A stretch of 64,000 bases of DNA from an uncultured Bryobacteraceae bacterium (GTDB lineage Bacteria; Acidobacteriota; Terriglobia; Bryobacterales; Bryobacteraceae): NCBI GenBank assembly GCA_938003835.1, contig CALKXJ010000020.1, positions 186,001 to 250,000 of the forward strand. The letters run 5' to 3'. The translations under genes were made by a program, and so were the position numbers. Position 1 is the first letter of the stretch; each line of letters starts with the position of its first letter. The notes under the pieces were generated by a model that saw only the letters and a list, made by a program, of their open reading frames with translations, was not told where the DNA came from and searched no databases. This document shows positions 13,359-31,922 of this stretch, piece by piece.

Positions 13359-13755
13359 AGAGTTTCGGCGCGTCCCGGGATCCCCACAGGAATGGCTGGA
13401 CCATGCAGAAAGCGAGCTGCGATCGGCGCAACTGGCTGGCCGCGAGCCGTCGATCCGGCGAGAGCTGGCGTGCTTTCACGCTCAGCAGGCCGCAGAAAAA
13501 GCGATCAAGGCGGTTCCGCTGAGGCATGGAATCAGCTTCCCGCCCACGCACAACATCGAACACCTCCTTCCGCTGGCAGAACGTGGCGGTGTTGCCCTGA
13601 GGGACGAGGCCCGGAATGCCGGATTCCTCACGCCCTACGCAGTTGAGACACGTTACCCCGGGCCATGGCCGGAGGTCAACCCATCCGAGTTGGAAGAGGC
13701 CCTCGAAATGGCAGAACAAACCCTTGTGTGGGCTCGCAGGCTAGTCAGTGAGTGA
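13339..13755 (+). CDS. HEPN-domain protein (toxin-type partner of MNT)
   Basis: A 138-residue protein beginning at a GTG that overlaps the end of the broken MNT gene by 20 nt. The family hallmark CFHAQQAAEKAIKA (about residues 45-58) and the segments FPPTHNIEHLLPL and LTPYAVETRYPG identify it as a HEPN protein. HEPN domains of MNT pairs are commonly RNases or targets of nucleotidylation, and the pair forms a toxin-antitoxin-like module. The ORF is intact, although its partner is not. It may be a silenced or inactive toxin, or be controlled by another MNT encoded elsewhere. The next gene, a sulfatase, starts 68 nt downstream. Confidence 0.85.
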   Translation: MSSINPEEFRRVPGSPQEWLDHAESELRSAQLAGREPSIRRELACFHAQQAAEKAIKAVPLRHGISFPPTHNIEHLLPLAERGGVALRDEARNAGFLTPYAVETRYPGPWPEVNPSELEEALEMAEQTLVWARRLVSE

Positions 13756-13823
13756 GAGCAGGAAGGATCGTAACCACTCCAACTCCTGGAGGCTGGCAAT
13801 TCAAATCGGGGAGGACAGCTACG

Positions 13824-15445
13824 ATGCCGGACTTGCGTATCTTCTCTCGTCGAGCCTTCTTCCAGACTCTGGCGGCCATGCCCGCGCTCGCAGCTTGCGC
13901 CCGGCCCAACATTGTGCTGATCCTGAGTGACGATGTCGGCTACGGGGACCTGAGCTGTTACGGTGCCCGCCGCGTGGCGACACCGAACCTCGACCGCCTG
14001 GCCCGTGGCGGCGTCCGGTTCACCAGCGCCTACTCCCCTTCGGCCACCTGCACCCCCACCCGCTACGCCCTGCTGACCGGCGAGTACGCCTGGAGACGCG
14101 AGGGCACCGGTGTCCTGCCGGACGATACTCCCCTCATCATCGAACCAGGCCGCGAAACGCTACCCGCGCTACTCAAACGTGCGGGACACGTTACCGCCTG
14201 CGTCAGTAAGTGGCATCCCGGCCTGGGCGCCGGTAACCTGGACTGGAACGGCGAGATCAGGCCCGGGTCCCTCGAGGTCGGCTTCGATTACTGCTTCCTG
14301 ATCCCGGCCACGGGAGACCGCGTGCCGTGCGTCTATGTTGAGAACCATCGCGTTGTCGGCCTCGACCCCGCCGATCCTATCCGAGTCAGCTTTCGCGGGC
14401 CCGACGGCGACGAGCCTGCGGGGCGCGACCGGCCGGACCTGCTCAAGCTCAGGCCCAGCACGGCCACGACCAGACCATCGTCAATGGCATCAGCCGCATC
14501 GGCTACATGAGTGGCGGCAAGGCCGCGCACTGGAAGGATGAGGACATGGCCGACACCATCACAGGGAAAGCCGACGCTTTCATCGAAGCCCACCGGCGCC
14601 GGCTCTTCTTCCTGTACTTCTGCACCCACGACATCCACGTTCCCCGCGTGCCTCACGCCCGCTTCATCGGCAAGAGTCGCTGCGGCGTTCGGTGCGACAC
14701 CCTGGTGGAGCTGGACTGGTGCGCCGGCGAACTGGTGCGCACGCTCGAGCGGCTCGGGCTGGCCCGGCAGACACAGGTGATCTTCTCGAGTGACAACGGG
14801 CCCGTGGTCGATGACGGCTACCAGGACGGCGCCGTCGAAACGCTTGGCGACCACAGGCCGGCGGGTCCCTGGCGCGGCGGTAAATACAGCAACTTCGAGG
14901 GGGGCACGCGCGTGCCATTCATCGCCTGGTGGCCCGGCCGCGTCCGGCCGCGCGTCTCCGAGGCCTTGATCAGTCAGGTGGATCTTCTCGCCACGCTCGC
15001 CGCCCTGGCCGGAGAAAAGCCTGGCGAGCAGGCTGGAGCGGATAGTTTCAACCTGCTGTCGGCGCTACTCGGCGATTTCACAACCGGCCGCGACCATCTG
15101 GTAGTGCACCCCGGCTCTCTGTCGCTGCGGCGCGGCCGCTGGAAGCTGATCCTGCCGAGCTCCGGTCCGGCTTTTAGCAAGAACACGCACATCGAACTCG
15201 GCAACGCCCCTGAGCCGCAGCGATATGACCTAGAGTGCGATCCCGGCGAAACCCGGAACCTGGCGGCCTCTCGCCCCGCTCTCGTCCGCGAGCTCGCCGA
15301 ATTTCTCGAAAAGATCTGCACCCAGGGCCGCGGCCGGCCGTTCACCTCCGAAAGCGGCAAACAGCAAGCTCACCACGCACTGCTCCTAGTAATGCCTTCA
15401 GCGCGCCGGCGGCGATCTCCCGGTTGCTCCAGGCCGGAAGCTTAG
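13824..15445 (+). pseudogene. sulfatase (arylsulfatase A-like), frameshifted
   Basis: Two overlapping frames together encode a type I sulfatase. The first (ATG 13824 to 14510) has a twin-arginine-like export signal SRRAFFQTL with a lipobox LAAC (Cys25), metal ligands in LSDDVGYGD, and the formylglycine site CTPTR with Cys76. Near 14457-14459 homology moves to another frame, consistent with loss of one base; restoring it would give the expected HGHDQTIVNGISRIGYM segment. The second frame carries FSSDNGPVVDDGY and GPWRGGKYSNFEGGTRVPF. All visible catalytic residues are present, so the lesion looks recent or could be a sequencing error. The last residues before the stop at 15443-15445 do not look sulfatase-like and abut the IS remnant. 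A frame starting at 13752 exists but 13824 begins the export signal. Confidence 0.82.
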
Positions 15446-15596: not shown

Positions 15597-16571
15597 TCAA
15601 GCAGTGGCCGCCATCAGGTTCCGCATCCTCACCGGGTTGTAGGCCGCCGCTGCGAGCGTGAACAGCCATCCCACCTTCTTCCGTCCTCTCAACTTCACCT
15701 TCCTCAGCCCCGCCACCCCCTTCGCCCAGCCGAAGAACTCGTCCACCAGCTTCCGCCTCCTCTGGCTCACCCAGGAGCCCTCGTGCTGCGTCGTCCGCCC
15801 ATCCGCCGCGCTGCGCCGACCCCCGCTCACATTCTGCGCCACATGCGGCGTCACCTTCAGCTCTTCCAGCTGCTCGACAAACTCCCGCGCATCGTAGCCC
15901 CGATCGGCCGCCAGCGTCGCCCGCCTGGTCCCTCCCGGGATCTCCCGCGCCACCTCCACCGCCGCCTCCCGCTCCGCTCGCCCGTAAACTTTCCTCACCC
16001 GCACGTTTACGATCGGCCCATGCCGGTTCTCTCCCAGCACGTGCCCCAGATAACTCAGCTTCGCCTCCGCCGTCCGGCTCTTCCGCCACAGCCGCCCCTC
16101 CGGGTCCGTCACCGACTCAGGCGTCCCATTGCGCCGCTGCTGGCCGCGGAAACCCACCTTCCGATTCCGGCCGCCCTCGGTCGGTTCGTCCTCATCCCGC
16201 TTCTTCTGTTTCGGCCGGAAGCTCTTCTGGCTGGCCCACGCCTCCACCATCGTCCCGTCCACCGAAAAATGCTCGCTCGACATCAGACTCCGCTGCTTGG
16301 CCTGCCGCACGATCTCAGCGAAGAAGGCCCGCGCCACCTCTCCCGCCAGCAGCCGGTCCCGGTTCTTCGTGAAACCATCGCCTGCCAGACCTCCTCACTC
16401 ATCCCCAGCCCCACACTAACGGAACAACGGGTTGTAGCGCAGCTGCCCGACCCGCATTCGCTCGCTTCGGATCGTGTACAGCAGCATCAGCAAATCACGC
16501 CCGCAGCAGCCGCTCTGGCGCAATCGACGGCCGCCCCACCTCTCTTGCTGCTGGCGGTCTTCTCCCCTCAT
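15597..16571 (-). pseudogene. IS5-family DDE transposase, multiply frameshifted
   Basis: The C-terminal 246 residues form one open frame (16337 to 15597) with the DDE residues in HFSVDGTMVEAW (D), LAADRGYD (D) and KLVDEFFGWAKG (E). Upstream, homology continues from ATG 16571 (MRGEDRQQQ) but changes frame repeatedly: GRPSIAPERLLRA is in a second frame, DLLMLLYTIRSERM returns in the first and meets a stop after YNPLFR, and MSEEVWQAMV is in yet another frame. A segment expected after QQQ is deleted. These lesions make it non-functional. Confidence 0.85.
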
Positions 16572-17071: not shown

Positions 17072-19297
17072 TCACTGCGCCACGGCGCAGGCTTGCGGGC
17101 TGGATGCACCCTCAAGATCGGTGCCGCCGTCGAAGGCGCCGTTCGCGTTGCAGTCGTTCCAGGCACGCACCACGTAGCAGTACTGCGTGCCCTTCGCGAG
17201 GCCCGTGTCCCGGTATGAGAGCGTCGATGCGCCTACGCCGGCACGGAATTGCAGCTTGCCGGCCTGCACGTAGTAGATGCGGTAGCCCCCGTTTGGCGCC
17301 GGGCTGGCGGCAGTCCAGGCGAGCTTGACAGCGCGGCGGTCGCCGGTCGCCGTCAAACTGGCCGGCGTGCCGGGAGCTGAACAGGTCGGCGCCGGCGGGG
17401 CACCCCACACCGCCGAGGCCATCACATACGGCTCCGCCATGCCGGTGTTGAGCCACGCCTGAAGGAGATTCTCGCCCTCGTTCGCCAGGAAGGCATTCTG
17501 GCGCGTGTTGGCCAGATACAGGAACTGGATGTACTCCCAGCTTGTGGGCTGGTAAAGCAGGCGGATTTCCGCATAGACGGCGCCCGCTGGGGGATTGAGC
17601 GTTACCTCATCCCAGTGGCGGTAGGTGCCGTCGGACTGCGCGTACAGCGTCGCCGGCACGGGCAGAACGTTCCGCTTGCGCGCCTCTTCGTACCTCATCC
17701 CGTAAGGAGGAATCCGGTTGTCCTTAGCCACGTGATTGTTCAGCACGAAGTGGAACGTCTCGGCATACGGCGCGATACCGTTCGCCAACTGGCCGAGCGT
17801 CAGACTCACCTGGCCGGTGATGCGGTCATAGGCGAGCGGAAGCACGGCCGGATAGCCCAGCGCCAGGAGCTGGGCAGCCCACTCCCTCGTCATGGCGTAA
17901 TGCGCTTCGTAGATCCGCGTGTTGGGATCGTGGAGATTCACGATGCTCTTGACGCGGAGCGCGGAGCCGCCGAGCGTGACATTGAGCGTGTCGTACTTGC
18001 CGTCCTCGCGCACCAGGTTCCTCGAGCTGTCATACCAGCGGATGTTAAGCCACATCCGCCGCCCTTCCGGGTAACCGGTGATGAGCTTGTGCCCGGTGAG
18101 ATTGACCACCTTCAGCGTGTTGCCCGAGACGCTGAGCGAAGCGGCCCAGCTCAACTGCTGGCGCGCCCGCGCCTGGCCCGCACGGATCGCCTCGATCTGC
18201 GTCGCTGTCAACCCCCCGCCCAGCCGCAGCAGTCCGCGGGCGTTCTGCCAGAGGATCGCCTCGGGGATCCAGTAGTTGCCACCGGTCATGTCGTGCAGCG
18301 GCAAGTCGGTCCGCACCGGCGCGCCGGCTTTGTTGCAACCCTGGCCGGTGACGGCGCGCATGTGGCAGGTCTGGCAGGTGAAGTAGCGCGCCGTGCCGTC
18401 GGCGTAGTTGCCCCGCGCCGCCTCATAAGCTGCCTGGATGGCGCCTGCCTTGAGCTCCGCCGGCAACGTGCTATAGGCGCTCACCAGGGTGGAGCCGAGC
18501 AGGCCGGACTTGAACTCGCTGAAGGTCCGCTCGACGATCCCGTACTGGTAGGGGAAGTTGTTGAAAGCGGCCTTGGCGGTGAGCGGCCCGCCGAGCGTTC
18601 CATTGGCGATGACCGCATCGGCCGTCGGCTGCTTGCCGTTATTGTGCGCCAGATCGCCGACGGCCGGGTTCGAGACATCGTGGCAGGAGCCGCAGAATTC
18701 CGCCATACGATGGAAGCGGCTGGGCAGGGACTGGTGCCGCGCCGAGGCGTCGAAATAGGGGCCGAGCTTCTCGTTTCCGGCCCACAGCGAAAGCATCCCG
18801 CTGCCGTAGTATCCCGTCGCGGGCGTCTTGCGGTCGTTGGCGATAAAGGGCGTGACCATCACGCCGCGGTGCTCGGAGTTGTCCGGATTGGTCATCTTGT
18901 GGCAGGCGTCGCACTCGACGCCGTCGGCATCCCCGGCGGCGAGCGCCGAGCCATCGGTCGGCGTCGAGCGGCCCCCATACCAGCCTGCGGTGCTGTGACA
19001 CCGGATGCAAAGATCGCCGGCGCCGTCGAAGCCCTGCTCGGCGACGGCGAGGGTCGCCCAGAAGAGCGGATCCCGCGAGGCGTTGGCCATCAGGCTGCCT
19101 CGCCAGTTGAATGCCGGCTCCACGGCGGTGTTATAGCCGCCGTGGCAGTTATCGCACTTATCGGGAGTTTCGAGGTTCCGGACCTCTCTTTGCTGGGTGC
19201 CGGGTTGCTGGATTTCATTGGGAACCACCGTCGCGGCGATGAGGACGGCGGCGGCGGCAAGGAGAGCAGCGGCGAAAAGCGATCGCCGGTACGGCAT
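17072..19297 (-). CDS. exported multiheme c-type cytochrome with C-terminal fibronectin III-like domain
   Basis: A 741-residue protein with a signal peptide (hydrophobic residues 6-23) and five CxxCH heme sites: CDNCH, CIRCH, CDACH, CGSCH and CQTCH. Lone Cys/His pairs may add further ligands. After the cytochrome domain comes a beta-rich part without hemes and then an Fn3-like domain (TPASLTATGDRRAVKLAWTA, about residues 640-735). A periplasmic or cell-surface electron-transfer role is inferred from the hemes; the partner is unknown because no oxidoreductase neighbours it. A strong SD (AAAGGAGG) precedes ATG 19297, and a near-consensus promoter lies at 19401-19429. It seems monocistronic. Confidence 0.88.
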   Translation of the reverse strand: MPYRRSLFAAALLAAAAVLIAATVVPNEIQQPGTQQREVRNLETPDKCDNCHGGYNTAVEPAFNWRGSLMANASRDPLFWATLAVAEQGFDGAGDLCIRCHSTAGWYGGRSTPTDGSALAAGDADGVECDACHKMTNPDNSEHRGVMVTPFIANDRKTPATGYYGSGMLSLWAGNEKLGPYFDASARHQSLPSRFHRMAEFCGSCHDVSNPAVGDLAHNNGKQPTADAVIANGTLGGPLTAKAAFNNFPYQYGIVERTFSEFKSGLLGSTLVSAYSTLPAELKAGAIQAAYEAARGNYADGTARYFTCQTCHMRAVTGQGCNKAGAPVRTDLPLHDMTGGNYWIPEAILWQNARGLLRLGGGLTATQIEAIRAGQARARQQLSWAASLSVSGNTLKVVNLTGHKLITGYPEGRRMWLNIRWYDSSRNLVREDGKYDTLNVTLGGSALRVKSIVNLHDPNTRIYEAHYAMTREWAAQLLALGYPAVLPLAYDRITGQVSLTLGQLANGIAPYAETFHFVLNNHVAKDNRIPPYGMRYEEARKRNVLPVPATLYAQSDGTYRHWDEVTLNPPAGAVYAEIRLLYQPTSWEYIQFLYLANTRQNAFLANEGENLLQAWLNTGMAEPYVMASAVWGAPPAPTCSAPGTPASLTATGDRRAVKLAWTAASPAPNGGYRIYYVQAGKLQFRAGVGASTLSYRDTGLAKGTQYCYVVRAWNDCNANGAFDGGTDLEGASSPQACAVAQ

Positions 19298-19531: not shown

Positions 19532-20023
19532 TCAGCCGAACAGGGGAAGCTGGTTGGCCGTGGCTCGCCGCCTCTGCTCGGAGGCGCGTGCCAGTTGTTC
19601 GCGAGCGAACTGGCGCAGCCGCGCGGCCTGATCGGAGACGGAGACCAGCAGCATGGGGCGCCGCGCCGTCTTCAGCCGCTCGATGACGGCCCGCTCGTCC
19701 CGTTCGAGGTGCGCCGTCCTGCCGTCAGTCAAGAGGTACAGGGCGGACTGCTGATCCAGCAGGGCTTCGGCGAGCTCTTCGAGCGAGCGCCGCGCTGCGC
19801 GCAAAAGGCGGCTCACCACCCGCAGGCTGAGCCCCTTGCGCCGCAGCTCGGCCGCCAGCAAAACCTCGAGCACTTCGGCCGCGCGCCAGACGCGGCGGCG
19901 TCCCTTCCGGCCCACGGCGAGAACGCCGGTTTCGTCCCACCACTGGAGCTGGCGCAGGGTCACCCGGGCGATCCGCGAGACTTCGCCGGTGGAAAACTCC
20001 GCTGACGCAAGCGACGCGTTCAC
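19532..20023 (-). CDS. MerR-like transcriptional regulator
   Basis: A 163-residue protein with a MerR-type winged helix near the N-terminus (STGEVSRIARVTLRQLQWWDETGVL, residues about 11-35, followed by the wing GRKGRRRVW and EVLEVLLAAELRRKGLSL). The remaining part is a helical, charged effector or dimerisation region without metal-binding cysteines, ending in NQLPLFG, a tail often seen in this group of acidobacterial MerR-like proteins. It starts 39 nt after the stop of the LptF-LptG gene on the same strand, so it may be the last gene of that operon. Its target is unknown. Confidence 0.82.
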   Translation of the reverse strand: MNASLASAEFSTGEVSRIARVTLRQLQWWDETGVLAVGRKGRRRVWRAAEVLEVLLAAELRRKGLSLRVVSRLLRAARRSLEELAEALLDQQSALYLLTDGRTAHLERDERAVIERLKTARRPMLLVSVSDQAARLRQFAREQLARASEQRRRATANQLPLFG

Positions 20024-20062: not shown

Positions 20063-22372
20063 TCAGGTCCTTACGCGCGTGAACAGGTAGGTGCCTGAGA
20101 GGGCGAAGATCAGGCCCGGTGACCAGGCCGCCATGGCCGCCGGGAGCTGGCTCAAGTTGCCGATCTGCTCGAAAAGCTGGCTCACGGCCCAGTATGCCAG
20201 GGCGATGATGAAGCTCACGCCCACGCCTGCCATCGCGCCGCGGTGCCCTGTCAGAAAGGCAAAGGGGACGGAGATGACCGCCATGATCAGCGCAAAAAGC
20301 GGTACGGAGAATTTCTTGTGATACTGCACGCGGAGCCGCGACGTATCGAAGCCGCTCTGCTGAAGCTCGCGGATATAAGCGTCCAGTTCCGCGAAATTCA
20401 TCTGCTGGTCCTGCTTGACTTCCTTCAAGAAGTAACCCGGCGGCTCGTCCAGTTCGGGGAAGGTCGCCGCCTGGCCGAGAAAGTCCTGGTAGCGGGTCAC
20501 CCGCACCTTCTCGAGTTCCCAGCTCTGGCCGTCCTGGAAGACCCAGGTGCCGAGCAGCGGCTCCCAGCGGGCGCGTTCGGCCTGAATATGCCGGCGCAGG
20601 CGGAAGGTCCGCGGGTCGAGCTCGTAGACGCTGACGCCGTACATAATGCTCTGCGCCGGATCGAAATACTTGTAGTAGTAAATGCGCGAACCCCGGCCAA
20701 AGATCCACCGGCGGTCCGGCCGGAGGTAAGTCTGCACCGGCCTGCCCTTGATCTCGTTGCGGATGGCATCCTGGATCCGGTTGGCCTCGGGCACATAGTA
20801 ATGATCGAAGGCAAATAGCGCTGCGCTCAAGAAGCCGCAGGCCAGAAACACCGGCGCGGACAAGCGGTAGAGGCTCACGCCGCAGGCCTTCATCGCCGTC
20901 ACCTCGTTGTGCTTGGTCAACACACCGAAGGTGACCAGCACCGCCACCAGCACCGCCATCGGCGCCGAATCGTAAATCAGCTTGGGCGTCAGAAAGAGGT
21001 GATACGTGGCGACACGTCCCATCGAGATCTTGTTCTTGACGATGTCGCTCAACAGCTCGAAGAACGTAAACACGTGCGTGAGGGCGACAAAGCTGGCCAG
21101 CAGCAGGGCGAAATAGAACAGGAAGCTCGACAGGACGTAGGTGTCGATAATCTGCGGCAGAAGCGGCGCCAGCCCGCGTCCGTTTCGGCGAGCTCCGGCC
21201 GCCGGCAGCGACCCGCGCAGCCGGGCCACCAACGCGTGAAGCCGTCCCGCTGCCAGGCCCAGCCAGTCTCGCTCGCCTGGCGCCTCGAGTCTCGCCACGG
21301 CAATGATTCCGGCGACGGCCAGCAGCACGTTCGGGGTCCAGACCGCCGCCACCACCGGAAGCCGCTCCTGCTTGGCCATGCCGATCAGGCTGATCAGACC
21401 CATGTAGTAAACAAAGGCGAGGAAGACCGTGAGCACAAGCGCCGCGGCCCGCCCGGACTTCTGAGTCGAGACGCCCAGCGGCACCCCGAGAACCGCCAGC
21501 AGCAGGCACGCACACGGCAGCGCGAGCCGCTGGTGAAGCTCGATGCCCGCTTCCACAGAGCGCCGGGCCTCGACGATCAGCGGCTGGGTGTCCATCCAGG
21601 TGTACGCCTTGGCCACCTCGCGGTTGGGCTCCTTGGCTTCGAGCACCTGCTCGCCTTGAGGAAATGCCGTGGAGAAGTACTCGCCCGGCTTGGTGCCCGC
21701 CTCATGCGAGCTGCCATCCACCATCGACAGTTGAATCCGGTTGCGCACCGGGTCCGGCACGGCGATCGCTTCCGTCGCAATGGTGATACGCGGCTGGTCG
21801 CTTGCGCCGGCGCCGCGCTGCTCCGGCGGCGTAACGTCCGCCAGAAAGACATGGCGCCAGCGAACCAGGTTGCCCGGAATGACGTCTCCGACATAGACCA
21901 CCTGGTTGGGAAATGACTCCTCGAAGACCCTCGGCTTGATTTCGGCCGTCACCTGCTCGGCGAGCAGCTCGTTCAGCACCCGGTAAGTTTCGCGGATCGA
22001 CCAGGGGGTCAGCCAGGTGGTGGCCAGCAGAGCGGCGACCATGGCGGGCAGGGCGAAGAGCACCACTGGCAGCAGGATCCGGCGTGTGGGGATTCCTGCG
22101 GCGCGCATGCCCAGCACCTCGCCGTCGGCCGACATCCGGCTCAGGCTCAGCAGGACGCCCGCCAGCACGCCGATGGGGATAGCGAAGGCGAGCGTCGGCG
22201 GGATGAGCAGCAGGAAAAGGTAGCCGACCGTCTGGGCTCCGGCCGAGGTGCGCACCAGAATCTCGAACAGCCGGCCCAGCTTCTGGAGAAACAACACGAG
22301 CACGAACAGCGCCGTGCCGAAGCCGCCGCTCGAGGCGATTTCACGAAAGATCGACCGGCTCAGGACTCCCAT
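20063..22372 (-). CDS. fused LptF-LptG LPS-export permease
   Basis: A 769-residue protein made of two YjgP/YjgQ permease modules in tandem, about twice the usual 350-390 residues. Module 1 (about 1-365) begins LSRSIFREIASSGGFG and contains GEVLGMRAAGI; module 2 (about 400-769) begins PQIIDTYVLSSFL and contains TKHNEVTAMKACGVSLYRL, the same conserved site. Each module has membrane helices at both ends around a large periplasmic beta-jellyroll. LptF and LptG form the transmembrane half of the LptB2FG transporter that extracts lipopolysaccharide from the inner membrane; the ATPase LptB is not in the window. The fusion keeps the order LptF-like then LptG-like. Ten nt separate it from the upstream TldE-like gene. 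Confidence 0.9.
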   Translation of the reverse strand: MGVLSRSIFREIASSGGFGTALFVLVLFLQKLGRLFEILVRTSAGAQTVGYLFLLLIPPTLAFAIPIGVLAGVLLSLSRMSADGEVLGMRAAGIPTRRILLPVVLFALPAMVAALLATTWLTPWSIRETYRVLNELLAEQVTAEIKPRVFEESFPNQVVYVGDVIPGNLVRWRHVFLADVTPPEQRGAGASDQPRITIATEAIAVPDPVRNRIQLSMVDGSSHEAGTKPGEYFSTAFPQGEQVLEAKEPNREVAKAYTWMDTQPLIVEARRSVEAGIELHQRLALPCACLLLAVLGVPLGVSTQKSGRAAALVLTVFLAFVYYMGLISLIGMAKQERLPVVAAVWTPNVLLAVAGIIAVARLEAPGERDWLGLAAGRLHALVARLRGSLPAAGARRNGRGLAPLLPQIIDTYVLSSFLFYFALLLASFVALTHVFTFFELLSDIVKNKISMGRVATYHLFLTPKLIYDSAPMAVLVAVLVTFGVLTKHNEVTAMKACGVSLYRLSAPVFLACGFLSAALFAFDHYYVPEANRIQDAIRNEIKGRPVQTYLRPDRRWIFGRGSRIYYYKYFDPAQSIMYGVSVYELDPRTFRLRRHIQAERARWEPLLGTWVFQDGQSWELEKVRVTRYQDFLGQAATFPELDEPPGYFLKEVKQDQQMNFAELDAYIRELQQSGFDTSRLRVQYHKKFSVPLFALIMAVISVPFAFLTGHRGAMAGVGVSFIIALAYWAVSQLFEQIGNLSQLPAAMAAWSPGLIFALSGTYLFTRVRT

Positions 22373-22382
22373 CGCAACGCGT

Positions 22383-24143
22383 TTAACGCCGCGGCGTTAT
22401 GGACGGGGCCGGCACCACCGGCGGCCGGGGATACTGCTCCTGGCTCCGCTCGAGTTCCATCTCCTCGAACAGCAGCGAAGGAGCCACCACGGTGGTCCCG
22501 GCCACATAGCCGCCGGCGCCCGCCAGCGACAGCGGCGCCGTGTTGGCCAGGTATTGGAACAGATGGCTCTCGTCGGAGGCGCCAACGATATCGCGGAGCA
22601 GGCGCGCGGAAACGTTGCGGAACTCCAGGCCGCGAACCAGCTCCTCGCTCCCGTCGGACCGCAGGCGCCACACGAGCAGCGGGCGGCTGACCAGCCGGCC
22701 GGCGGCGCCGCGTTCGCGCGCGCTAAGCGCCATGCGCCGCAGCTCGCGCAGACCGCCCGAGGCGGGAAAGTCCAGCTGCCGCACGATCAGCCCGTAGGGC
22801 TTGCCACGCTCGCGGACCAGCTCAAGCAACCGTTCGCGAAGCGCCCCGGCCGTCAGCGTCCTGGAGGCGCTGACGAACAGGTTGCTGATCCCCGCCGCCT
22901 TGGCCCCGAATGATCCGGGAAGGCGCGCCCGGCCGTTGGAGCCGGACTGGCCTTCGACGGGCTGCCGGGTGAGCAGAAAGCCGCGCAGGACGCCGCGCTC
23001 GACCAGCACCAGCGGCTGGGGGACCACGCCCTCCATGTCCACGCGGTAATGGCCGAGCAGCCGGCGGCCGCGCCACTGTTTCTGCGTCGGGTCATCGACC
23101 ACGTCGATCCACTCGGGGAGCACCCGCGAGCCCAGCCGCCCCTCGAACTCGCTCGGCTCCACCGGCGGCGTGCGCCCGGCTTCGGCGACGGGCCGGCGCA
23201 CCGGGGCGAGGTTCCGGCCGAGCAACTGAGCGAGCAACTGCGGCGCGGCGATGCCCTCGAACAGCACGGGTCCTACATAATCTTCGGCTACAGGCGCCCG
23301 GCGAAGGGCATCGGTGAGGCGCGCGGCTTCTTCCACCACTTCGCGCAGCTCCGCCCAGGCGGGTGCGGCCTCCGGCTCGGGCCAGACGACAGTGGCGGCG
23401 TGGCGAACCGGCATCCCGTCGGGGGCCTGCGCCTGGGCCCGCACGCCGACCCAGTGCACCCAGTCGGTATAGCGAAGGCGGGCGCCCTCGGAATTCACCA
23501 AGTAGCTCACCGTGCGGTTGCTCGTGTAATCCACCTGGGAAAAATCGATCTGCGGGTAACCGCGAAACAGATTGGAAAGTTCCCGGACGCGCTCCGCCCA
23601 TCCGCTGACTTCCGGCTGCCGGGCGCTCACCGGCTCGAGCAGCGTCGCCGGCTCGGCCTTCCAGAAGTCCGGTGTGTCTTTGAAGGCACCGAGATTTTTC
23701 ACCGCGGCCCGCTTGCGCGCGATCGATTGGAGCGCGCCTTTGTAGGCCGCGTCTGTCGCCAGCCAAAAGTAAGCGCGCAAGGCGGCTTCGTCGTCTTCGA
23801 GCGGCACGCCGGCGCCCGCCGGCGCCCGCCGGAACAAGTCCGCCAGGACGTAGTTGGTGTTGTCGAAATCGTAGCTGCCGACGCGCACTTCGACACCCGC
23901 CACGCGGAAGCGGGGCCGGTCCTCGGAAATGAGCGCACCGAGCGTTGCCGCTGCCGTGAAGCTGCTCACGTCCTCAAGCGTGTACTGAATGAAGTAGGGC
24001 GCCTCGAGCTCCCCCAGCCGGATGGTGCGGGAGCGCTCGAGTTCGGCTTCGAGAGCCCGGAGCACCGGATCGGGAGCGGATCCGGGCGCCTGCGCCCCCT
24101 GGGCGGCAAGGCAAAGACCGAGCAACAAACAGGCGGCGCCCAT
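22383..24143 (-). CDS. exported TldE/PmbA-like protein (catalytic motif lost)
   Basis: A 586-residue member of the TldD/PmbA family with a signal peptide (hydrophobic residues 2-15, QGAQ). It shares with its upstream neighbour the opening pattern (ALEAELERS...APYFIQYTLEDV), the VGSYDFDNTNYV strand and the C-terminal TldD fold. Where TldD enzymes have HExxxH this protein reads APQLLAQLLGRN, so the zinc site is missing, as in TldE, the non-catalytic subunit. TldD and TldE normally form a cytoplasmic heterodimer that degrades unfolded or linear peptides; here both subunits carry export signals. Its ATG shares one base with the stop of the TldD-like gene (TGATG), which predicts translational coupling and complex formation. 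Confidence 0.85.
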   Translation of the reverse strand: MGAACLLLGLCLAAQGAQAPGSAPDPVLRALEAELERSRTIRLGELEAPYFIQYTLEDVSSFTAAATLGALISEDRPRFRVAGVEVRVGSYDFDNTNYVLADLFRRAPAGAGVPLEDDEAALRAYFWLATDAAYKGALQSIARKRAAVKNLGAFKDTPDFWKAEPATLLEPVSARQPEVSGWAERVRELSNLFRGYPQIDFSQVDYTSNRTVSYLVNSEGARLRYTDWVHWVGVRAQAQAPDGMPVRHAATVVWPEPEAAPAWAELREVVEEAARLTDALRRAPVAEDYVGPVLFEGIAAPQLLAQLLGRNLAPVRRPVAEAGRTPPVEPSEFEGRLGSRVLPEWIDVVDDPTQKQWRGRRLLGHYRVDMEGVVPQPLVLVERGVLRGFLLTRQPVEGQSGSNGRARLPGSFGAKAAGISNLFVSASRTLTAGALRERLLELVRERGKPYGLIVRQLDFPASGGLRELRRMALSARERGAAGRLVSRPLLVWRLRSDGSEELVRGLEFRNVSARLLRDIVGASDESHLFQYLANTAPLSLAGAGGYVAGTTVVAPSLLFEEMELERSQEQYPRPPVVPAPSITPRR

Positions 24144-25825
24144 CAGCGGCCTCCGGATTCCCAGGGAGCGGGCAGGATGGGCGGGCGTTCTTCAGAGGCG
24201 GGCTGCTTTTGAATCTCGAGTTCGCTCACCAGCAGCGCGGGCGAAACGGCCGAAACCGGTACGCTGCCGGACTCGGCCCCGCAGTAGCCGTTGAAGACGC
24301 CTGGCCGGTCCCCGGTGGCCATGATCCTGGCGAAGCTCGCCAGCGGAGTCCCGACCATGTCGGCGCCACGCACCAACTCGTCCGGACGGCCGTCGGGGTA
24401 GACTCGCCAGACCACCAGCGGGATGACTTTCCAGGCCTGGATCGTGCGTCGCTCGGTAAGGGTGTATCCGCCCGTGGCCCGCTCGAAGTAGTAGCCGTAC
24501 GGTTTGCCCTGCCGGCGAATCTCCTCGATCAGCAGGCGCCGCAGCTCCGCCTCGGGAACCTGCCGGGCCGACTCCACGATCAGATTCGACTGGCGCGCCA
24601 CCACTTCGCGTCCCGGCTGTCGCCGGCCGTGGCCGTTCGACTTCAGAAAGCCAGGGACCGGGGAGCGCGACATCAGGAAGGTCTTCATGACGCCGGCTTC
24701 CACCACGGGCAGGCGGCGCGCTTTCACGCCCTCGTCATCGAACAGATAGAAGCCCATCAGATCGGCCCCGGCGGCGTGTCGCTGGGTGGGGTCGAAAATG
24801 ACGGAGAGGAACTCCGGTAGCACTCTCGTGCCGATGCTCTTGGCGAAGGTCTGGCCCTCGGTGGTGTCCTTCTGGCGGTGCCCCTCGATGCGGTGGCCGA
24901 AGATCTCATGGAAGAAGACGCCGGCGGCCGGACCGGATAGGATCGCCGGGCCCACATACGGCTCGATGACCGGCGCCTTGCGGAGGCGGCTGACCTCGGC
25001 GCCCAGGCGAAGAACGGCCTGACGAATCCGTTCGTCGTCGGGCAGAGGGGAACCGTCCAGCGCTTCGAAGCTCTCCGAGCTTGAAACGTCCATTCCGTCA
25101 TCGGCCTTGGCGCGAGCCGCAAGCTCCAGACGCACCAGTCGCTTTCCGTGCGCCAGCCGCGTGCCCTCGCTCGTAACCAGGTACTTCATTTCGCGCTGCG
25201 CAACGACAGAGATCTGCGAGTCCAGCAGCTCGGGGAATGCAGCGAACTCCCGGGAGGCTGCCCGGAGCCGGCCCGCCCAGCTCTCTGCGGGAAATTCGAG
25301 CGGCGGCGCCTCCTCGGCGAAGCGGACCGGATCCTCCTCGGAGAAATCCGGTGTGGGCCCCTGCTGAGCTACGGTGACCTGCTTGCGCGTCTTGATTTGG
25401 ATCAGGCGCTCTGCGGCCGCACGCCAGGCGCGGTCGATCTCCAGCCAGATCAGCCGGCGGATGGCGTCCGCGGAGTCCTCCACCGGGATCGGCCGGGCCG
25501 AGGTGAACACCGGAGTTTCCCCGTCGACGGGATGGTAGTTGTCCATCTCGGGGCTGCCCACGCGGACCGAGACGTCGAGCAGGCGGGTCCGCCGACCGCC
25601 GCGAGCCCGCAGCGCGCCCCGGCTGGCGGCGATCAATTGATACTCGGTGTCGGTGACTGCGCAGGAGATGAAGTACGGCGCCGGATCGCCCTTGGCTTTG
25701 AGAGTGGCAAAGTTGCGCTCGAGCTCCTCGGCGAGAATCTCGAGCAAAGGCGGTTCCGCGCCGGGCGCGGGCCTGACCGCCAGCAGCAGCGCCAAAAGGA
25801 AGAGGCCGCGAGCCCTCGCTTCCAC
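24143..25825 (-). CDS. exported TldD-like zinc metallopeptidase
   Basis: A 560-residue TldD/PmbA-family protein with signal peptide (residues about 6-23, APGAE). The zinc motif HEIFGH is at residues 306-311 in GVFFHEIFGHRIEGHRQK, matching the HExxxH of active TldD. The C-terminal part has the typical DEGVKARRLPVVEAGVMKTFL and SNGHGRRQPGREV segments. Cytoplasmic TldD lacks an export signal and is about 480 residues, so the longer N-terminal part (about 1-200) is specific for this acidobacterial group. It is the first gene of the pair with the TldE-like gene and lies upstream of lptFG. Envelope peptide or protein processing is inferred from location only. Confidence 0.87.
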   Translation of the reverse strand: MEARARGLFLLALLLAVRPAPGAEPPLLEILAEELERNFATLKAKGDPAPYFISCAVTDTEYQLIAASRGALRARGGRRTRLLDVSVRVGSPEMDNYHPVDGETPVFTSARPIPVEDSADAIRRLIWLEIDRAWRAAAERLIQIKTRKQVTVAQQGPTPDFSEEDPVRFAEEAPPLEFPAESWAGRLRAASREFAAFPELLDSQISVVAQREMKYLVTSEGTRLAHGKRLVRLELAARAKADDGMDVSSSESFEALDGSPLPDDERIRQAVLRLGAEVSRLRKAPVIEPYVGPAILSGPAAGVFFHEIFGHRIEGHRQKDTTEGQTFAKSIGTRVLPEFLSVIFDPTQRHAAGADLMGFYLFDDEGVKARRLPVVEAGVMKTFLMSRSPVPGFLKSNGHGRRQPGREVVARQSNLIVESARQVPEAELRRLLIEEIRRQGKPYGYYFERATGGYTLTERRTIQAWKVIPLVVWRVYPDGRPDELVRGADMVGTPLASFARIMATGDRPGVFNGYCGAESGSVPVSAVSPALLVSELEIQKQPASEERPPILPAPWESGGR

Positions 25826-25874: not shown

Positions 25875-26507
25875 CTACATCTTCGGCAACGCCAGATAAC
25901 CCTTCTCTTTCATGCCGCTGATGGCCAGGCCGATGCGGCCGCGCACTCCGGTCTTCTCGAAGATGTGCTTCAGGTGGATCTTGACCGTACCGGGGCGGAT
26001 GCCCAGCTCCCGGGCGATCTCGCGATTCTTCAGGCCCTGCTCGACGAGTTCAAGGACCTGCTGTTCGCGCGCTGTCAGCTCGCTTCGGCCGTAACGCGGG
26101 CGCGCCGAGTGCTCGCGGAAAAGCATCTCCTCCATCCAGGTGGCGCCCTCAGCCACCGAACGGAGGCAGGCGAGGACGCTCTCGAGAGGGGCGCTCTTGC
26201 GGAGAATCCCCTTGACGCCTCTCTGGAGCAGCCTCAGGGCCTCCAGCTCCGAGATGGTGTTTCCCCAGACGACGATCGCCGTCGAGCGGGACACCTGCCG
26301 TGCTTCCTCGATCCAGCTTTGAACCAGTTGCGCGCCGAATCCCTTATCAAGGAGCAGGATGTCGGCCGGTTGCGCCTTGAGCGCCGCCAGCGCATCCGCC
26401 CAGGAGAATACGGCGAAGCGGAACTCGAGCTCCGGGTCCTGGCCGAGCAGGCAGCGCAGGCCTTCGGCCGTTACCGGCTGGGTCTCACAGATCCCAACTC
26501 CCTTCAT
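25875..26507 (-). CDS. LuxR-family response regulator, degenerate receiver
   Basis: A 210-residue regulator with an N-terminal receiver-like domain (about 1-120) and a C-terminal LuxR/NarL helix-turn-helix (LTAREQQVLELVEQGLKNRE, then LGIRPGTVKIHLKHIFEKTGV). The receiver keeps an Asp in ILLLDKGF and the Lys in GILRKSAP, but the N-terminal acidic pair is weakened (CETQ) and the conserved Thr/Ser position reads VVWGN, so phosphorylation may be lost. No histidine kinase is nearby. It is divergent from the CpaE-like gene (212 bp between them) and lies 49 nt upstream of the TldD-like gene on the same strand; either could be its target. Confidence 0.88.
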   Translation of the reverse strand: MKGVGICETQPVTAEGLRCLLGQDPELEFRFAVFSWADALAALKAQPADILLLDKGFGAQLVQSWIEEARQVSRSTAIVVWGNTISELEALRLLQRGVKGILRKSAPLESVLACLRSVAEGATWMEEMLFREHSARPRYGRSELTAREQQVLELVEQGLKNREIARELGIRPGTVKIHLKHIFEKTGVRGRIGLAISGMKEKGYLALPKM

Positions 26508-26719: not shown

Positions 26720-27937
26720 ATGGAAAGGACCGCCAGCCTAGTGCCGACGTCCGCCAAATCGGCCTGGATCGTGTGCCCGCACGCGGGAATGATGGCCGAC
26801 CTGATTCCGATCCTGTCGAGCCGCCTGCCTGAAGTGTCGCTGGTTTCAAGCAAATCCTACCCGGAAATCCCCGCCATTCGGGAGCAACTGGCGGCCGAGA
26901 AGCCCGCCGTCTGCTTTCTCGATGTCGAAACGGACGCCGAGCGCGCTCTGGCGGTGGCGGGCGAGATTCTGGCCCTTCAGCCCAGCCTGCCCATCGTGAT
27001 TCTGCTCGAGCGCAACGATCCGACGCTGGTGCTTCGGTTTCTGCGGCGCGGAGCGGCCGAGTTCCTGCTGCGCCCCTTTCCGCCGGAGGAGTTCCAGGTT
27101 GTGCTGGAGCGGCTGGCCCCGATATCGCCGCTGCCACGCTTCGGCAAGGGGGGCCGCGTCATTGCGGTTGCGCCGGCCAAAGGCGCCTGCGGCGCTAGCA
27201 CGATTGCCGCCAACCTGGCCGCCCACGCGGCGCAAAGCGACGAGGGCAAGCTGCTCGTGGCCGATCTGGATCCGCTCGCGGGCATCATCGCCTTCCTCAT
27301 GAAAGTGAAGTCGCCCTACAGCTTTCTCGACGCGCTGAATCGGGCCACCAGCCTGGATGACGACCTCTGGCGTGGGATCGTCACCTCGCGGGGAGGTCTC
27401 GACATCCTTCCCGCCCCGGACAATCCCACCGACGCGATGGCGGAGCTGCCGGATCCGGCGCCGCTGCTGGAGTTCGCCAGGCAGCGCTACCAGCTGATCG
27501 TCGTCGACAGTCCGCCCGTGTTCAGCCGCTGGGCAACCTCGCTGGCCTCGCTGTGCGACGAGCTGGTTCTGGTGACGACGAACGAGTTGGCGGCGGTCCA
27601 TGCCGCCCAGCGCGCGCTTGCCCACCTGGAGCGCCAGCGGATCGAGCGAGCCAAGGTGCGCCTGGTGCTCAACCGCTTCGAGCGAAGCGCGGGCCTGAGC
27701 CGGGAAGCGATCGCCACGGCCTTGCACGTCGAAGTGGCGCATGTGGTTCCGGCCGATCCGGAGACGATCCACCGGTCGATCGTCGAGGCCAAGCCGGCGC
27801 CGGCAAACTCGGCTGTCGGCCGCAGCCTGCGGGAGCTGGCCTGGCAGATCTCCGGTCGTCCCGCACAGCCTGCCCCTCGTCCCCGAAGCGCCTGGAGCGG
27901 AATCCTCTCCTCGCTGTTCTCCAGAGCGACGCTCTGA
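26720..27937 (+). CDS. cpaE: CpaE-like ATPase (receiver-like domain plus MinD/ParA-type ATPase)
   Basis: A 405-residue protein. The N-terminal 130 residues resemble a receiver domain (VCFLDVETD in the phospho-site strand, VLRFLRRGAAEFLLRPF). The MinD/ParA-type ATPase follows with a deviant Walker A AKGACGASTIAANLA, ADLDPLAG and IVVDSPP. CpaE proteins localise the Tad pilus machinery at the pole in families where they are known. No other tad or cpa gene lies in this window, so the pilus link is by homology only. The second Gly of the KGG signature is replaced by Ala-Cys (KGACG), while the catalytic Lys is kept. It is divergent from the LuxR-type gene and convergent with the ABC exporter gene, ending 8 nt before it. 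Confidence 0.85.
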   Translation: MERTASLVPTSAKSAWIVCPHAGMMADLIPILSSRLPEVSLVSSKSYPEIPAIREQLAAEKPAVCFLDVETDAERALAVAGEILALQPSLPIVILLERNDPTLVLRFLRRGAAEFLLRPFPPEEFQVVLERLAPISPLPRFGKGGRVIAVAPAKGACGASTIAANLAAHAAQSDEGKLLVADLDPLAGIIAFLMKVKSPYSFLDALNRATSLDDDLWRGIVTSRGGLDILPAPDNPTDAMAELPDPAPLLEFARQRYQLIVVDSPPVFSRWATSLASLCDELVLVTTNELAAVHAAQRALAHLERQRIERAKVRLVLNRFERSAGLSREAIATALHVEVAHVVPADPETIHRSIVEAKPAPANSAVGRSLRELAWQISGRPAQPAPRPRSAWSGILSSLFSRATL

Positions 27938-27945
27938 GTGCGCGC

Positions 27946-29688
27946 CTAGATCGCCTCGAGCTCCTCCTCGAGCTGCTGCTTTTGCCAAAGGCCGGCGTAG
28001 AGGCCGCCGCGCGCCAGTAGTTCGGCGTGGCTGCCCTGCTCGGCGATCCGGCCGTCCTCGAGCACGTAAATGCGGTCGGCGTGGCGCACCGTGGAGACCC
28101 GATGCGAGATGAGGATCGTCGTTCGTTCGCGCATGAGCGAGGCGAGCGCGGTGAGAATCCGTTCCTCGGTGAGCGTATCGACGCTCGAGAGCGCATCGTC
28201 GAGAATGAGGATCCGCGGGTCGCGGAGGATGGCCCGGGCGATTGCCACCCGCTGCTTCTGGCCGCCCGAAAGCGTCAGGCCCCGCTCGCCGACCAGCGTC
28301 TCGAAGCCGGCCGGGAACCCGGCGACGTCCTCGGTCAGGCCTGCCACGTCCGCCGCCCAGCGGATCTGCTCCTCGGTCGCGTGGCGGACGCCGAAGGCGA
28401 TATTCTCGGCCAGAGTGGCGCTGAAGAGGAAGGTCTCCTGCGGCACGAAACCGATCTGGCGGCGCAGCTCGCCGAGAGCCAGGCGGCGCACGTCAACGCC
28501 GTCGACGAGGACACTTCCGCGTGTCGGATCGATCAATCGCGGGATCAGTTGAACCAGCGTGCTCTTGCCGCTGCCGGTGTGGCCGACGATCGCCACCGTC
28601 GAACCGGCGGGCACCCGCAGATCGACGCCGTCGAGGGCAGCCGTGCCGCCGAAGCGTACATGTATGCCTGAGAGCTCGATCTCTCCGCGGATGTCCCCAT
28701 TCAGGCGGACCGGCTGCGGAGGATCGGCGATCGCCGGCCGGGCATTTAAGATCTCGTTGATTCGTTTGAGAGAGGCCCCACCCCGCTGCACGAGATTCGC
28801 CACCCAGCCCATGGCGATCATCGGCCAGATGAGCATGCCGAGAAAGACGTTGAACATCAGGAAGCTGCCGAGCGTCAGCTCGCCGGCGAGCAAACGGTAG
28901 CCGCCGTACCAGAGCACGATGAGAAACGACAGGCTGGTCAGCCCCTGAAGCAGCGGTCCGAAGAGCGCCGACAGGCGCGCCAGCGAGAGGTTCTGGGAGA
29001 CGTAGTTCCGGCTGAGCGATTCGAAGAGCTGCTTTTCGGCGTCTTCCTGGACATAGGCGCGCACGATGCGCACGCCGGCGATACTTTCCTGCACCCGGCT
29101 GCTGATGTCGGAGAACAGCTCCTGGATCCGGCGAAACCGCTCGTGGATGTAACGGCCGAAAACGAGCACTGCCAGCGTGACCAGCGGGGCGGGGGCCAGG
29201 GCGGCAAGCGTCAGCCGCCAGTCGACCGAGAACATGATCGCGATGGCGAGCGTGGCCGTCGCCAGCGTGTCGGAGGTGTACATAATGCCCGGCCCGGCCA
29301 TGGCGCGGACGGCGTTCAGGTCGTTGGTAGCTCGCGCCATGATGTCGCCCGTGCGATAGCGCGAGTAGAAATCCGGCGACTGGCGCACCAGACTGGCGAA
29401 CAGATCGTTGCGGAGGTCGTACTCGACGTCGCGGGAGACCCCGATCAGCAGTACGCGCATGGCGTACTGGAAAATACCTTTGAGAGCCGTCAGCCCGATG
29501 AGCGCCGTCGTGGACCACAACGCCAGCCGCAGGCTGAAGTGGTGCGTGAGCGAGTCCACCGTTTCGCGAATGATGAGGGGAACCGCGGCGCCAGCGAGAT
29601 TCCGCGCCAGCAGGGCGCCGGCGCCCAAACCAAGATTGCGCCGGTAGCGCCTCAAATAAGGCCAGAGAGTACGGATTGTCTCCCTCAT
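27946..29688 (-). CDS. MsbA-like ABC exporter (fused permease-ATPase)
   Basis: A 580-residue half-transporter with six predicted membrane helices (about 20-320) and a C-terminal ATPase. The nucleotide-binding site has Walker A VGHTGSGKST, Q-loop FVPQETFLF, signature LSGGQKQRVAIARA, Walker B ILILDDALSSVD and switch His in ILISHRVSTV. The Walker B is followed by Asp (DDAL) instead of the usual catalytic Glu, a known variation in one site of heterodimeric exporters. Such proteins export lipids or drugs. Its placement at the end of the lpxC and CDP-alcohol phosphatidyltransferase run suggests lipid A or lipid export, but a heterodimer partner may be needed and is not visible here. Confidence 0.92.
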   Translation of the reverse strand: MRETIRTLWPYLRRYRRNLGLGAGALLARNLAGAAVPLIIRETVDSLTHHFSLRLALWSTTALIGLTALKGIFQYAMRVLLIGVSRDVEYDLRNDLFASLVRQSPDFYSRYRTGDIMARATNDLNAVRAMAGPGIMYTSDTLATATLAIAIMFSVDWRLTLAALAPAPLVTLAVLVFGRYIHERFRRIQELFSDISSRVQESIAGVRIVRAYVQEDAEKQLFESLSRNYVSQNLSLARLSALFGPLLQGLTSLSFLIVLWYGGYRLLAGELTLGSFLMFNVFLGMLIWPMIAMGWVANLVQRGGASLKRINEILNARPAIADPPQPVRLNGDIRGEIELSGIHVRFGGTAALDGVDLRVPAGSTVAIVGHTGSGKSTLVQLIPRLIDPTRGSVLVDGVDVRRLALGELRRQIGFVPQETFLFSATLAENIAFGVRHATEEQIRWAADVAGLTEDVAGFPAGFETLVGERGLTLSGGQKQRVAIARAILRDPRILILDDALSSVDTLTEERILTALASLMRERTTILISHRVSTVRHADRIYVLEDGRIAEQGSHAELLARGGLYAGLWQKQQLEEELEAI

Positions 29689-31022: not shown

Positions 31023-31922
31023 TTAGGGCACACCCGCGGCGATCGGCACGGGCTCGACGGCGTCCCAACTGAGGAGCTCGTACAGCGACGGATCCGAGAT
31101 GAGGCGCGAGACCAGGGCAAAGTGCATGGCATGACCGGCGCGCTCGGCCACGACATGCCCGAGCAGGGGGCGGCCCAGAAGGGCCAGATCGCCGATGAGA
31201 TCGAGCGCCTTGTGGCGGCAACACTCGTCCGGGAACCGCAGCCCCTCAGGGTTCATCACGCCCGAGGCGTCGAAACAGACCGCGTTGGCCAGGTTCGCCC
31301 CGCGAATCAGGCCCATATCGCGCATCTTGTCCAACTCGTGAGCGAAGCCGAAGGTCCGCGCCGGGGCGATCTCGCGCGCATAGGTCTCGGGCGTAACCTC
31401 GAGCTCCAGCCGCTGCCGCCCCACCATGGGATGGTCGAAGAAGACGTCACAGCTCAACAGGAACCGGTCCGCCGGCAGAATGGAAACCCGCTTGCCCGGA
31501 GCCTCCACCGTCACGGGACGCCGCACGCGCAGGTAGCGGCGGCGGCGGCGCAAGCGCCGGATACCGGCCGCCTCGAGCAGCTCGATGAACGGCCGGCCGC
31601 TGCCATCCAGAATCGGCACCTCGAGGTTGTCCAGGCGCACATAGGCGTTGTCGATGCCCATGCTGTAAAGCACGCTGAGAAGATGCTCGGTGGTGGAAAC
31701 GAGCACCCCCTGCCGCATCAGGCTGGTGGCGTAGCTTACCCGCGTGACGTACTTCCAGCTTGCCGGAACCTCGAAATCCTCGAGGTCAGTTCTCACGAAG
31801 ACGATACCCGTGCCGGCGGGCGCCGGAAGGAGCTCCATGCGGACGGCTACGCCGTGATGCAGACCCACTCCGGCTGTCGAGACTGGCCGCTCAATTGTGG
31901 TTTCGAAGTTCAAATCGCTCAC
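31023..31922 (-). CDS. lpxC: UDP-3-O-acyl-N-acetylglucosamine deacetylase LpxC
   Basis: A zinc deacetylase of 299 residues, normal length, catalysing the committed step of lipid A synthesis. Zinc ligands are H80 (STTEHLLS), H237 and D241 (RHKALDLIGD), and the catalytic base/acid region has H264 (AGHAMHF). The duplicated fold is visible from the motifs LDGSGRPF and RTFGFAHEL. The gene begins with GTG (31922). Presence of lpxC and of fused LptFG supports an outer membrane with LPS. It heads the run lpxC, CDP-alcohol phosphatidyltransferase, PH-like protein, ABC exporter. Divergent to polA with a short AT-richer spacer (31923-32096). Confidence 0.96.
   Translation of the reverse strand: MSDLNFETTIERPVSTAGVGLHHGVAVRMELLPAPAGTGIVFVRTDLEDFEVPASWKYVTRVSYATSLMRQGVLVSTTEHLLSVLYSMGIDNAYVRLDNLEVPILDGSGRPFIELLEAAGIRRLRRRRRYLRVRRPVTVEAPGKRVSILPADRFLLSCDVFFDHPMVGRQRLELEVTPETYAREIAPARTFGFAHELDKMRDMGLIRGANLANAVCFDASGVMNPEGLRFPDECCRHKALDLIGDLALLGRPLLGHVVAERAGHAMHFALVSRLISDPSLYELLSWDAVEPVPIAAGVP

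Follow-up and report, generated by a model that had tools for sequence, protein, structure and literature searches.

A signal-bearing TldD/TldE-like gene pair with a probably independent inactive subunit, packed against lptFG in Bryobacteraceae

The stretch of DNA analysed here (hereafter the window) comprises 64,000 nucleotides (nt) of contig CALKXJ010000020.1 from an uncultured Bryobacteraceae bacterium (assembly GCA_938003835.1, positions 186,001 to 250,000 of the forward strand). It carries two adjacent genes for Tld-like proteins, termed D' (the HEIFGH-bearing gene or protein) and E' (its zinc-less neighbour), which are followed by lptFG, coding for a permease of lipopolysaccharide (LPS) export. 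The TldD/TldE pair of Escherichia coli is cytoplasmic. We propose with moderate confidence that D' and E' are the two chains of a periplasmic zinc peptidase with the Tld fold, which in Bryobacteraceae is produced beside the LPS exporter. Judging from the phylogeny, the exported lineage probably produced its own inactive half, and the pairing of an active with an inactive subunit would then have arisen twice.

All three genes are located on the minus strand. The D' gene (25825..24143) has a GTG start and codes for 560 amino acids (aa), with signal-like residues at about positions 1-22 and HEIFGH at residues 306-311. The E' gene (24143..22383) codes for 586 aa, and the region of its zinc helix reads AQLLGR. 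In the TGATG overlap of the two genes, the ATG of E' and the stop codon of D' have one base in common, and 10 nt separate the stop codon of E' from the start of lptFG (22372..20063, 769 aa). The product of the latter exceeds the cut-offs of both equivalog models, LptF (TIGR04407, 318.5 bits; cut-off 230) and LptG (TIGR04408, 320 bits; cut-off 240); it differs from the LptF/LptG permeases in that both halves form one chain. Such a fusion appears to be ordinary in the phylum, because most frames exceed 740 codons among the matches listed. The first-pass annotation had described a signal-bearing Tld-like pair beside lptFG, and the genes, the TGATG junction, the 10-nt gap and the LptFG fusion were all confirmed. 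The window genome contains two matches to PF03739 (one among the matches listed) and a single LptFG gene.

PF19289, the C-terminal domain of Tld proteins (cut-off 22), matched D' with 87.5 bits and E' with 50.7 bits, and PF19290, the central domain (cut-off 20.9), matched E' with 29.9 bits. AlphaFold2 models were built from the sequences of the window and the named loci (32 rows for D', 31 rows for E'), giving a predicted local distance difference test score (pLDDT) of 87.6 and a predicted template modelling score (pTM) of 0.85 for D', and a pLDDT of 88.3 and pTM of 0.88 for E'. Over the whole mature chain, the D' model aligned with E. coli TldD with a Z-score of 30.2 (root-mean-square deviation 3.5, 450 aligned residues) and the E' model with a Z-score of 31.1 (3.5, 435 residues). 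Structures of the TldE/PmbA type yielded Z-scores of 23.2-26.6 towards D' and 23.3-26.7 towards E', and the non-Tld structures in the VIA-align tables reached at most 6.6 and 4.6, respectively. According to the models, both proteins thus represent complete Tld folds.

The zinc-site residues His306, Glu307, His311 and Cys515 are invariant in all 32 rows of D', the window included, and align with His262, Glu263, His267 and Cys454 of E. coli TldD. The retention of HEIFGH in one protein and its loss from the other, as read from the window, also holds among full-length relatives: HExxxH is present in 121/121 full-length D' and in 0/110 full-length E' proteins. The third ligand is embedded in the motif CGAE(S/A)G in 118 of the 121 D' sequences; at the named loci L187 and L192 the Cys is kept with the following residue changed, and in L093, where the match of that genome stops at residue 501, the motif was not found (L numbers denote named loci and G numbers surveyed genomes, G000 being the window genome). 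PMC5810440 describes the metal of E. coli TldD/E as held by His262, His267 and Cys454, beside Glu263, and TldE as lacking any metal ligand, with activity only when both subunits are present. It further gives threading of unfolded N-termini into a hollow sphere as the presumed mode of action, and states that TldD/E is a widespread peptidase known for its action on microcin precursors and a CcdA41 fragment.

D' and E' thus resemble E. coli TldD/TldE (PmbA; M103, PDB 5NJ5) in the whole-chain fold, in the presence of HExxxH and a remote Cys in one subunit only, and in the two-gene pairing of an active with an inactive protein. In contrast to the E. coli proteins, they have signal-like N-termini and about 100 extra residues, E' is probably of separate origin as argued below, and both fall far under the equivalog cut-offs: the TldD model NF008006 (cut-off 513 bits) gave 30 bits for D' and 19.4 bits for E', as against 590.7 bits for the cytoplasmic relative L205, and the TldE/PmbA model NF008268 (cut-off 438 bits) gave 11.7 bits for E'. 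The cytoplasmic TldE proteins of the same bacteria likewise stay below the latter cut-off (420.9 and 358.2 bits). The pair is predicted to function like TldD/E with the same fold, yet outside the TldD and TldE/PmbA equivalog families. The two classes of cytoplasmic Tld pairs of the same bacteria (L201-L212) share with D'/E' PF19289, a zinc and a zinc-less subunit, and, where both genes were read, their paired arrangement; they differ in being about 440-500 aa long, in having a PF01523 domain and no credible signal segment, and in forming separate clades. Among the open papers searched, no title or abstract dealt with an exported Tld pair, the family's dedicated review (Vobruba et al. 2022) lying outside that coverage, and no open paper on a tie between a Tld pair and LptFG was found.

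Export was assessed by a heuristic based on hydrophobicity only, namely an 11-residue mean Kyte-Doolittle value of at least 1.6 before the start of the mature protein; the stretch scanned comprised the first 45 residues of the controls and up to 45 residues ahead of the mature start of the putatively exported proteins. A signal-like core was found in 120/124 D' and 114/118 E' proteins, and when a basic residue was additionally required, with duplicates still included, in 115/128 and 113/122, respectively. Of the cytoplasmic Tld controls, 2/19 passed the core test: L209 through a segment inside the chain, and L211, the start of which is perhaps placed too far upstream. In the D' protein of the window, the n-region is basic and precedes a hydrophobic core with a mean value of 3.0 over 11 residues.

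E' directly follows D' in 73 of 80 named loci; the remaining seven comprise two fusions (L167, L187), two contig ends (L145, L159) and three D' genes for which no E' was found. Fusions of D' and E' occur in one open frame at L108 (7132-10962, 1276 codons) and L187 (4384-7842, 1152 codons), and at L167 (1-3399, 1132 codons) in one frame that is open at its 5' end. All three contain a linker, and a separate signal-like segment is missing from the E' part, as would be expected for two halves of one exported machine. From the gene pairing and the fusions, a D'E' complex is predicted. Matches to D' and E' were also observed in a single frame of 1579 codons in G226.

The origin of the inactive subunit was addressed with a tree of 49 rows, consisting of E. 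coli TldD and TldE, cytoplasmic pairs of both classes taken from relatives, and 13 proteins each of the D' and E' type. D' and E' formed one group (support 100/100), separate from cytoplasmic TldD (95/82) and TldE (91/87), and E' alone was supported at 81/96. In the approximately unbiased (AU) test, forcing all inactive subunits together, a group which was defined after inspection of the tree, cost 66.5 log units (p-AU 1.4e-6). Separate trees of the C-terminal and the N-terminal part each unite D' and E', and in neither are the E-type proteins joined in a single group; domain exchange was therefore rejected as the cause of the topology, with the caveat that cytoplasmic TldD is not one group either in the N-terminal tree. 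Moreover, the zinc helix is one residue short at the position of the second zinc histidine in 11/11 cytoplasmic TldE and in 0/13 E' proteins. Identification of E' as a TldE is rejected on the basis of the 49-row tree, the AU test, the part trees and the gap pattern. The first-pass annotation had inferred an envelope version of TldD/TldE; the signal-bearing pair with a full zinc site in one subunit only was borne out, but E' groups with D' and not with TldE. Since D' and E' form one clade, the grouping of E' with TldE is rejected and the zinc-helix deletion of TldE is absent from E', active/inactive pairing probably arose twice. The case for a separate origin of E' is strong but not final, because the tree is unrooted and the exported proteins sit on a long stem (1.68 changes per column).

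The association with lptFG was surveyed in 37 genomes of the family Bryobacteraceae, each representing a different genus. D' or E' is present in 33 of them, and in 28 of these 33, including the window, lptFG follows E' on the same strand. The distance between E' and lptFG, measured in 27 of the 28 genomes, amounts to -4 to 30 nt in 22 cases and is more strongly negative in five, in which the start assigned to the frame lies upstream; G165, also among the 28, is represented by a short contig with E' and lptFG only. The link is absent from G151, G171, G180 and G183 and hidden by contig ends in G154. As a control for relatedness alone, flanking genes were compared among the linked genomes: the gene after lptFG is common to 3/253 genome pairs and the gene before D' to 28/300, indicating that the block was kept while its surroundings were scrambled. 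The pair is missing from G153, G156, G158 and G162, of which G156 and G162 retain lptFG; LPS export is hence not strictly dependent on the pair.

Outside the family, the picture is different. In another family of the same order, the pair and lptFG are apart in 11/11 genomes with both subunits, and among the other 21 genomes of the phylum sample with both subunits they are apart in 20 (on different contigs in 18, and at separations of about 0.7 and 1.5 Mb in two), G101 being undecided. Of 41 named loci assigned to the Bryobacterales clade, 36 are linked, three are unlinked and two are cut; the clade was set by identity and by the tree (40 of the 41 rows) and not by record titles, which vary. 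None of the 31 decidable loci among the 39 outside this clade is linked, and eight are cut; lptFG was sought there with the window protein (expectation values (E) of 1e-15 and 1e-8), and distant lptFG genes may be missed. Linkage of L138, whose frame begins upstream, was assigned by hand. On the named-D' tree (69 labelled rows), the link requires four changes, as for one gain and few losses; L131 (split frame) was left out of this tree, and L109 (masked letters) out of alignment A1. A general lptFG link is thus rejected. Of the adjacency that the first-pass annotation had proposed to survey, conservation inside the family was found, but not beyond it.

Taken together, the following mechanism is proposed. 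D' and E' would be exported and would assemble in the periplasm into a heterodimer with the Tld (M103) fold and a hollow interior, in which D' would bind one metal via His306, His311 and Cys515, with Glu307 as the catalytic base, and the metal-free E' would complete the chamber. Unfolded peptides or N-termini may be threaded in and cut with little sequence preference, as in E. coli TldD/E. The pair would represent a lineage distinct from cytoplasmic TldD/TldE that underwent a separate duplication and in which E' lost the zinc site independently. In Bryobacteraceae, the pair is kept in a close-packed block with lptFG. Given this packing, peptide clean-up or trimming in the envelope would probably be made together with LPS export, and we infer co-transcription of the three genes.

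Several observations weigh against this proposal. The match of D' to PF19290 remains below threshold (18.5 bits), and PF01523, the N-terminal domain, was not found at E values up to 0.1 in the pairs of the window, L122 and L161; the models of D' and E' nonetheless align with TldD from residue 22 on. The signal peptides of both proteins are predicted from hydrophobicity. Those reported for both products in the first-pass annotation were recovered in full, as n-region and core, in D', but in E' only the core (2.64) is present and no Lys or Arg precedes it, so that the presumed export of the E' protein of the window leans on its relatives. Of the two residues that tether the clamp in E. coli TldD, D' has Ala in place of Lys456 and His in place of Asp272 (13/13 proteins), as against Lys and Asp in 12/12 cytoplasmic TldD, and its active site may therefore differ. 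Finally, D' occurs without a detectable E' at L149, L164 and L194, and D' and E' are on different contigs in G051 and G183, which in a draft genome is no proof of distance.

The first-pass annotation had also suggested control of LPS transport by the pair. In a related reading, D', E' and LptFG would be one three-gene machine, and the Tld complex of Bryobacteraceae would serve as an accessory of the LPS exporter that trims or clears a periplasmic protein component of the Lpt bridge or a peptide jamming it, its production being tied to the only LptFG of the cell. The persistence of the link in 28 of the 33 family genomes amid scarcely shared flanks, and the single LptFG gene of G000, speak for such a role. 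However, four family genomes carry the pair unlinked, two carry lptFG without it, the two are apart throughout the other family of the order and at all decidable loci outside the clade, and no lipid- or Lpt-binding feature was seen. With the pair occurring without lptFG beside it in another family of the order and in other classes and phyla, and lptFG without the pair in G156 and G162, control of LPS transport is unsupported, and we regard the accessory role as improbable; were the tie functional, LPS export would gain a protease. The link could instead reflect a shared promoter only: lptFG, which is presumably required for growth, would be transcribed from upstream of D', and breaks would rarely be tolerated although the products do not interact. 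The close packing (overlap and 10 nt in the window) agrees with this explanation, as does G162, which lacks the pair and has another exported-looking protein between the regulator and lptFG. It also agrees with a scan in which terminator-like sites were not above chance (5 versus 5.3 expected); the two promoter-like hits are both downstream of lptFG. Yet the same two genes are kept in most genera of the family, whereas replacements like that in G162 should otherwise be common; we consider a mere sharing of the promoter rather unlikely.

Two further alternatives concern the proteins themselves. The pair might be an exported N-deacetylase or another amidase acting on envelope sugars or lipids and not a peptidase. 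The reference list of PMC10885120 contains the title of a review that names N-deacetylases in the TldD/TldE family, and the replacements at the clamp of D' occur together; no sugar-related sequence feature was seen, none having been sought, and a literature search on deacetylases found nothing. This activity seems highly improbable to us. It is also conceivable that E' is a true descendant of TldE, drawn to D' by long-branch attraction. The six rows of unusual composition, the long stem, the support of E' (81/96) and the post hoc naming of the AU group would fit such an artefact; against it stand the union of D' and E' in both part trees, the p-AU value, the zinc-helix gap that E' lacks, and an E' model that is closer to TldD (Z-score 31.1) than to TldE-type structures (at most 26.7). 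We rate this possibility as distinctly improbable. The reading of D'/E' as a periplasmic zinc peptidase with its own inactive half gains interest from its distribution: the exported lineage, present in several LptF/LptG-bearing phyla and equipped with its own dead subunit, would constitute a second natural experiment on the need for an inactive half.

A survey of 84,980 species, each represented by a single genome, yielded at least 559 confirmed relatives. The best 80 of these at least 559 are titled as several groups of Acidobacteria, Aminicenantes, Planctomycetota and Verrucomicrobia, and further as Gemmatimonadota, Kapabacteria, WOR-3 and one cyanobacterial metagenome-assembled genome. The genomes (G numbers) and the named loci (L numbers) come from overlapping surveys, and their counts are not additive. 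In the sample of the window's phylum, D' matches (E 1e-80 or better) occur in 23/149 genomes, 22 of which also have E'; the sole exception is G033, a lone outlier whose locus L119, a lone relative of 35% identity that lacks a signal segment, probably does not belong to the group. Strong D' matches (E 1e-138 or better) were obtained in 5/119 and 11/246 genomes of the overlapping phylum samples of L165 and L198, and in 6/64 genomes of that of L188; with the limit loosened to 1e-40, the samples of L165 and L198 give 9 and 22 matches, some of them lone ones of about 30-36% identity. L198 is titled Alphaproteobacteria, yet its phylum sample shares genomes with that of the planctomycete L165, and the title looks wrong. 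LptF/LptG were present in 17/17 outside genomes tested. Across phyla, none of the neighbouring genes recurs beside the pair (59 loci), precursor-peptide clusters having received no dedicated search. Recurrent neighbours in the Acidobacteria 'gp2' are presumably, from their sequences, a secreted FecR-like protein, a SpoIIE-like phosphatase and a cation exporter.

Besides the exported pair, Bryobacteraceae and related genomes (L201-L212) contain additional Tld proteins of the cytoplasmic type, which fall into at most two classes: one at the level of the TldD equivalog and one far under the cut-off. Unlike most relatives, the window genome (5.0 Mb, estimated completeness 100) has no cytoplasmic TldD/TldE; its two PF19289 matches are D' and E', the sole proteins with this domain. 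That the exported pair stands in for a lost cytoplasmic one was considered and rejected: of the 33 family members carrying D' or E', only G000, G163, G173 and G175 show just two PF19289 matches, and most of the others show three or more.

As regards the surroundings of the block, a gene for a LuxR-type regulator (25875..26507, minus strand; PF00196, 61.5 bits; receiver domain under the cut-off) ends 49 nt upstream of D', and in 8/25 linked relatives with the upstream gene in view, a homologue directly precedes D' in the same orientation. It is adjoined by a gene for a ParA/MinD-type ATPase with an N-terminal receiver-like part (26720-27937, plus strand), which we take to be CpaE-like and which has homologues close to the D'-E'-lptFG block in several relatives. 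Downstream, at a distance of 39 nt from lptFG, a MerR-type gene (19532..20023, minus strand; PF13411, 44.8 bits) probably lies outside the unit and is not a recurrent neighbour. An ABC exporter of the MsbA type (27946-29688) and a presumably LpxC-like gene (31023-31922), both on the minus strand, make the region of the window around lptFG appear rich in LPS genes. Further away, positions 17072-19297 (minus strand) encode a signal-bearing protein of 741 aa with five CxxCH motifs, which we assume to be an exported multihaem cytochrome. Two overlapping frames of 252 and 312 aa at 13752-15445 (plus strand), whose product we take to be sulfatase-like, look like a single gene split by a frame change, and are followed by a transposase-like frame (15597-16337, minus strand).

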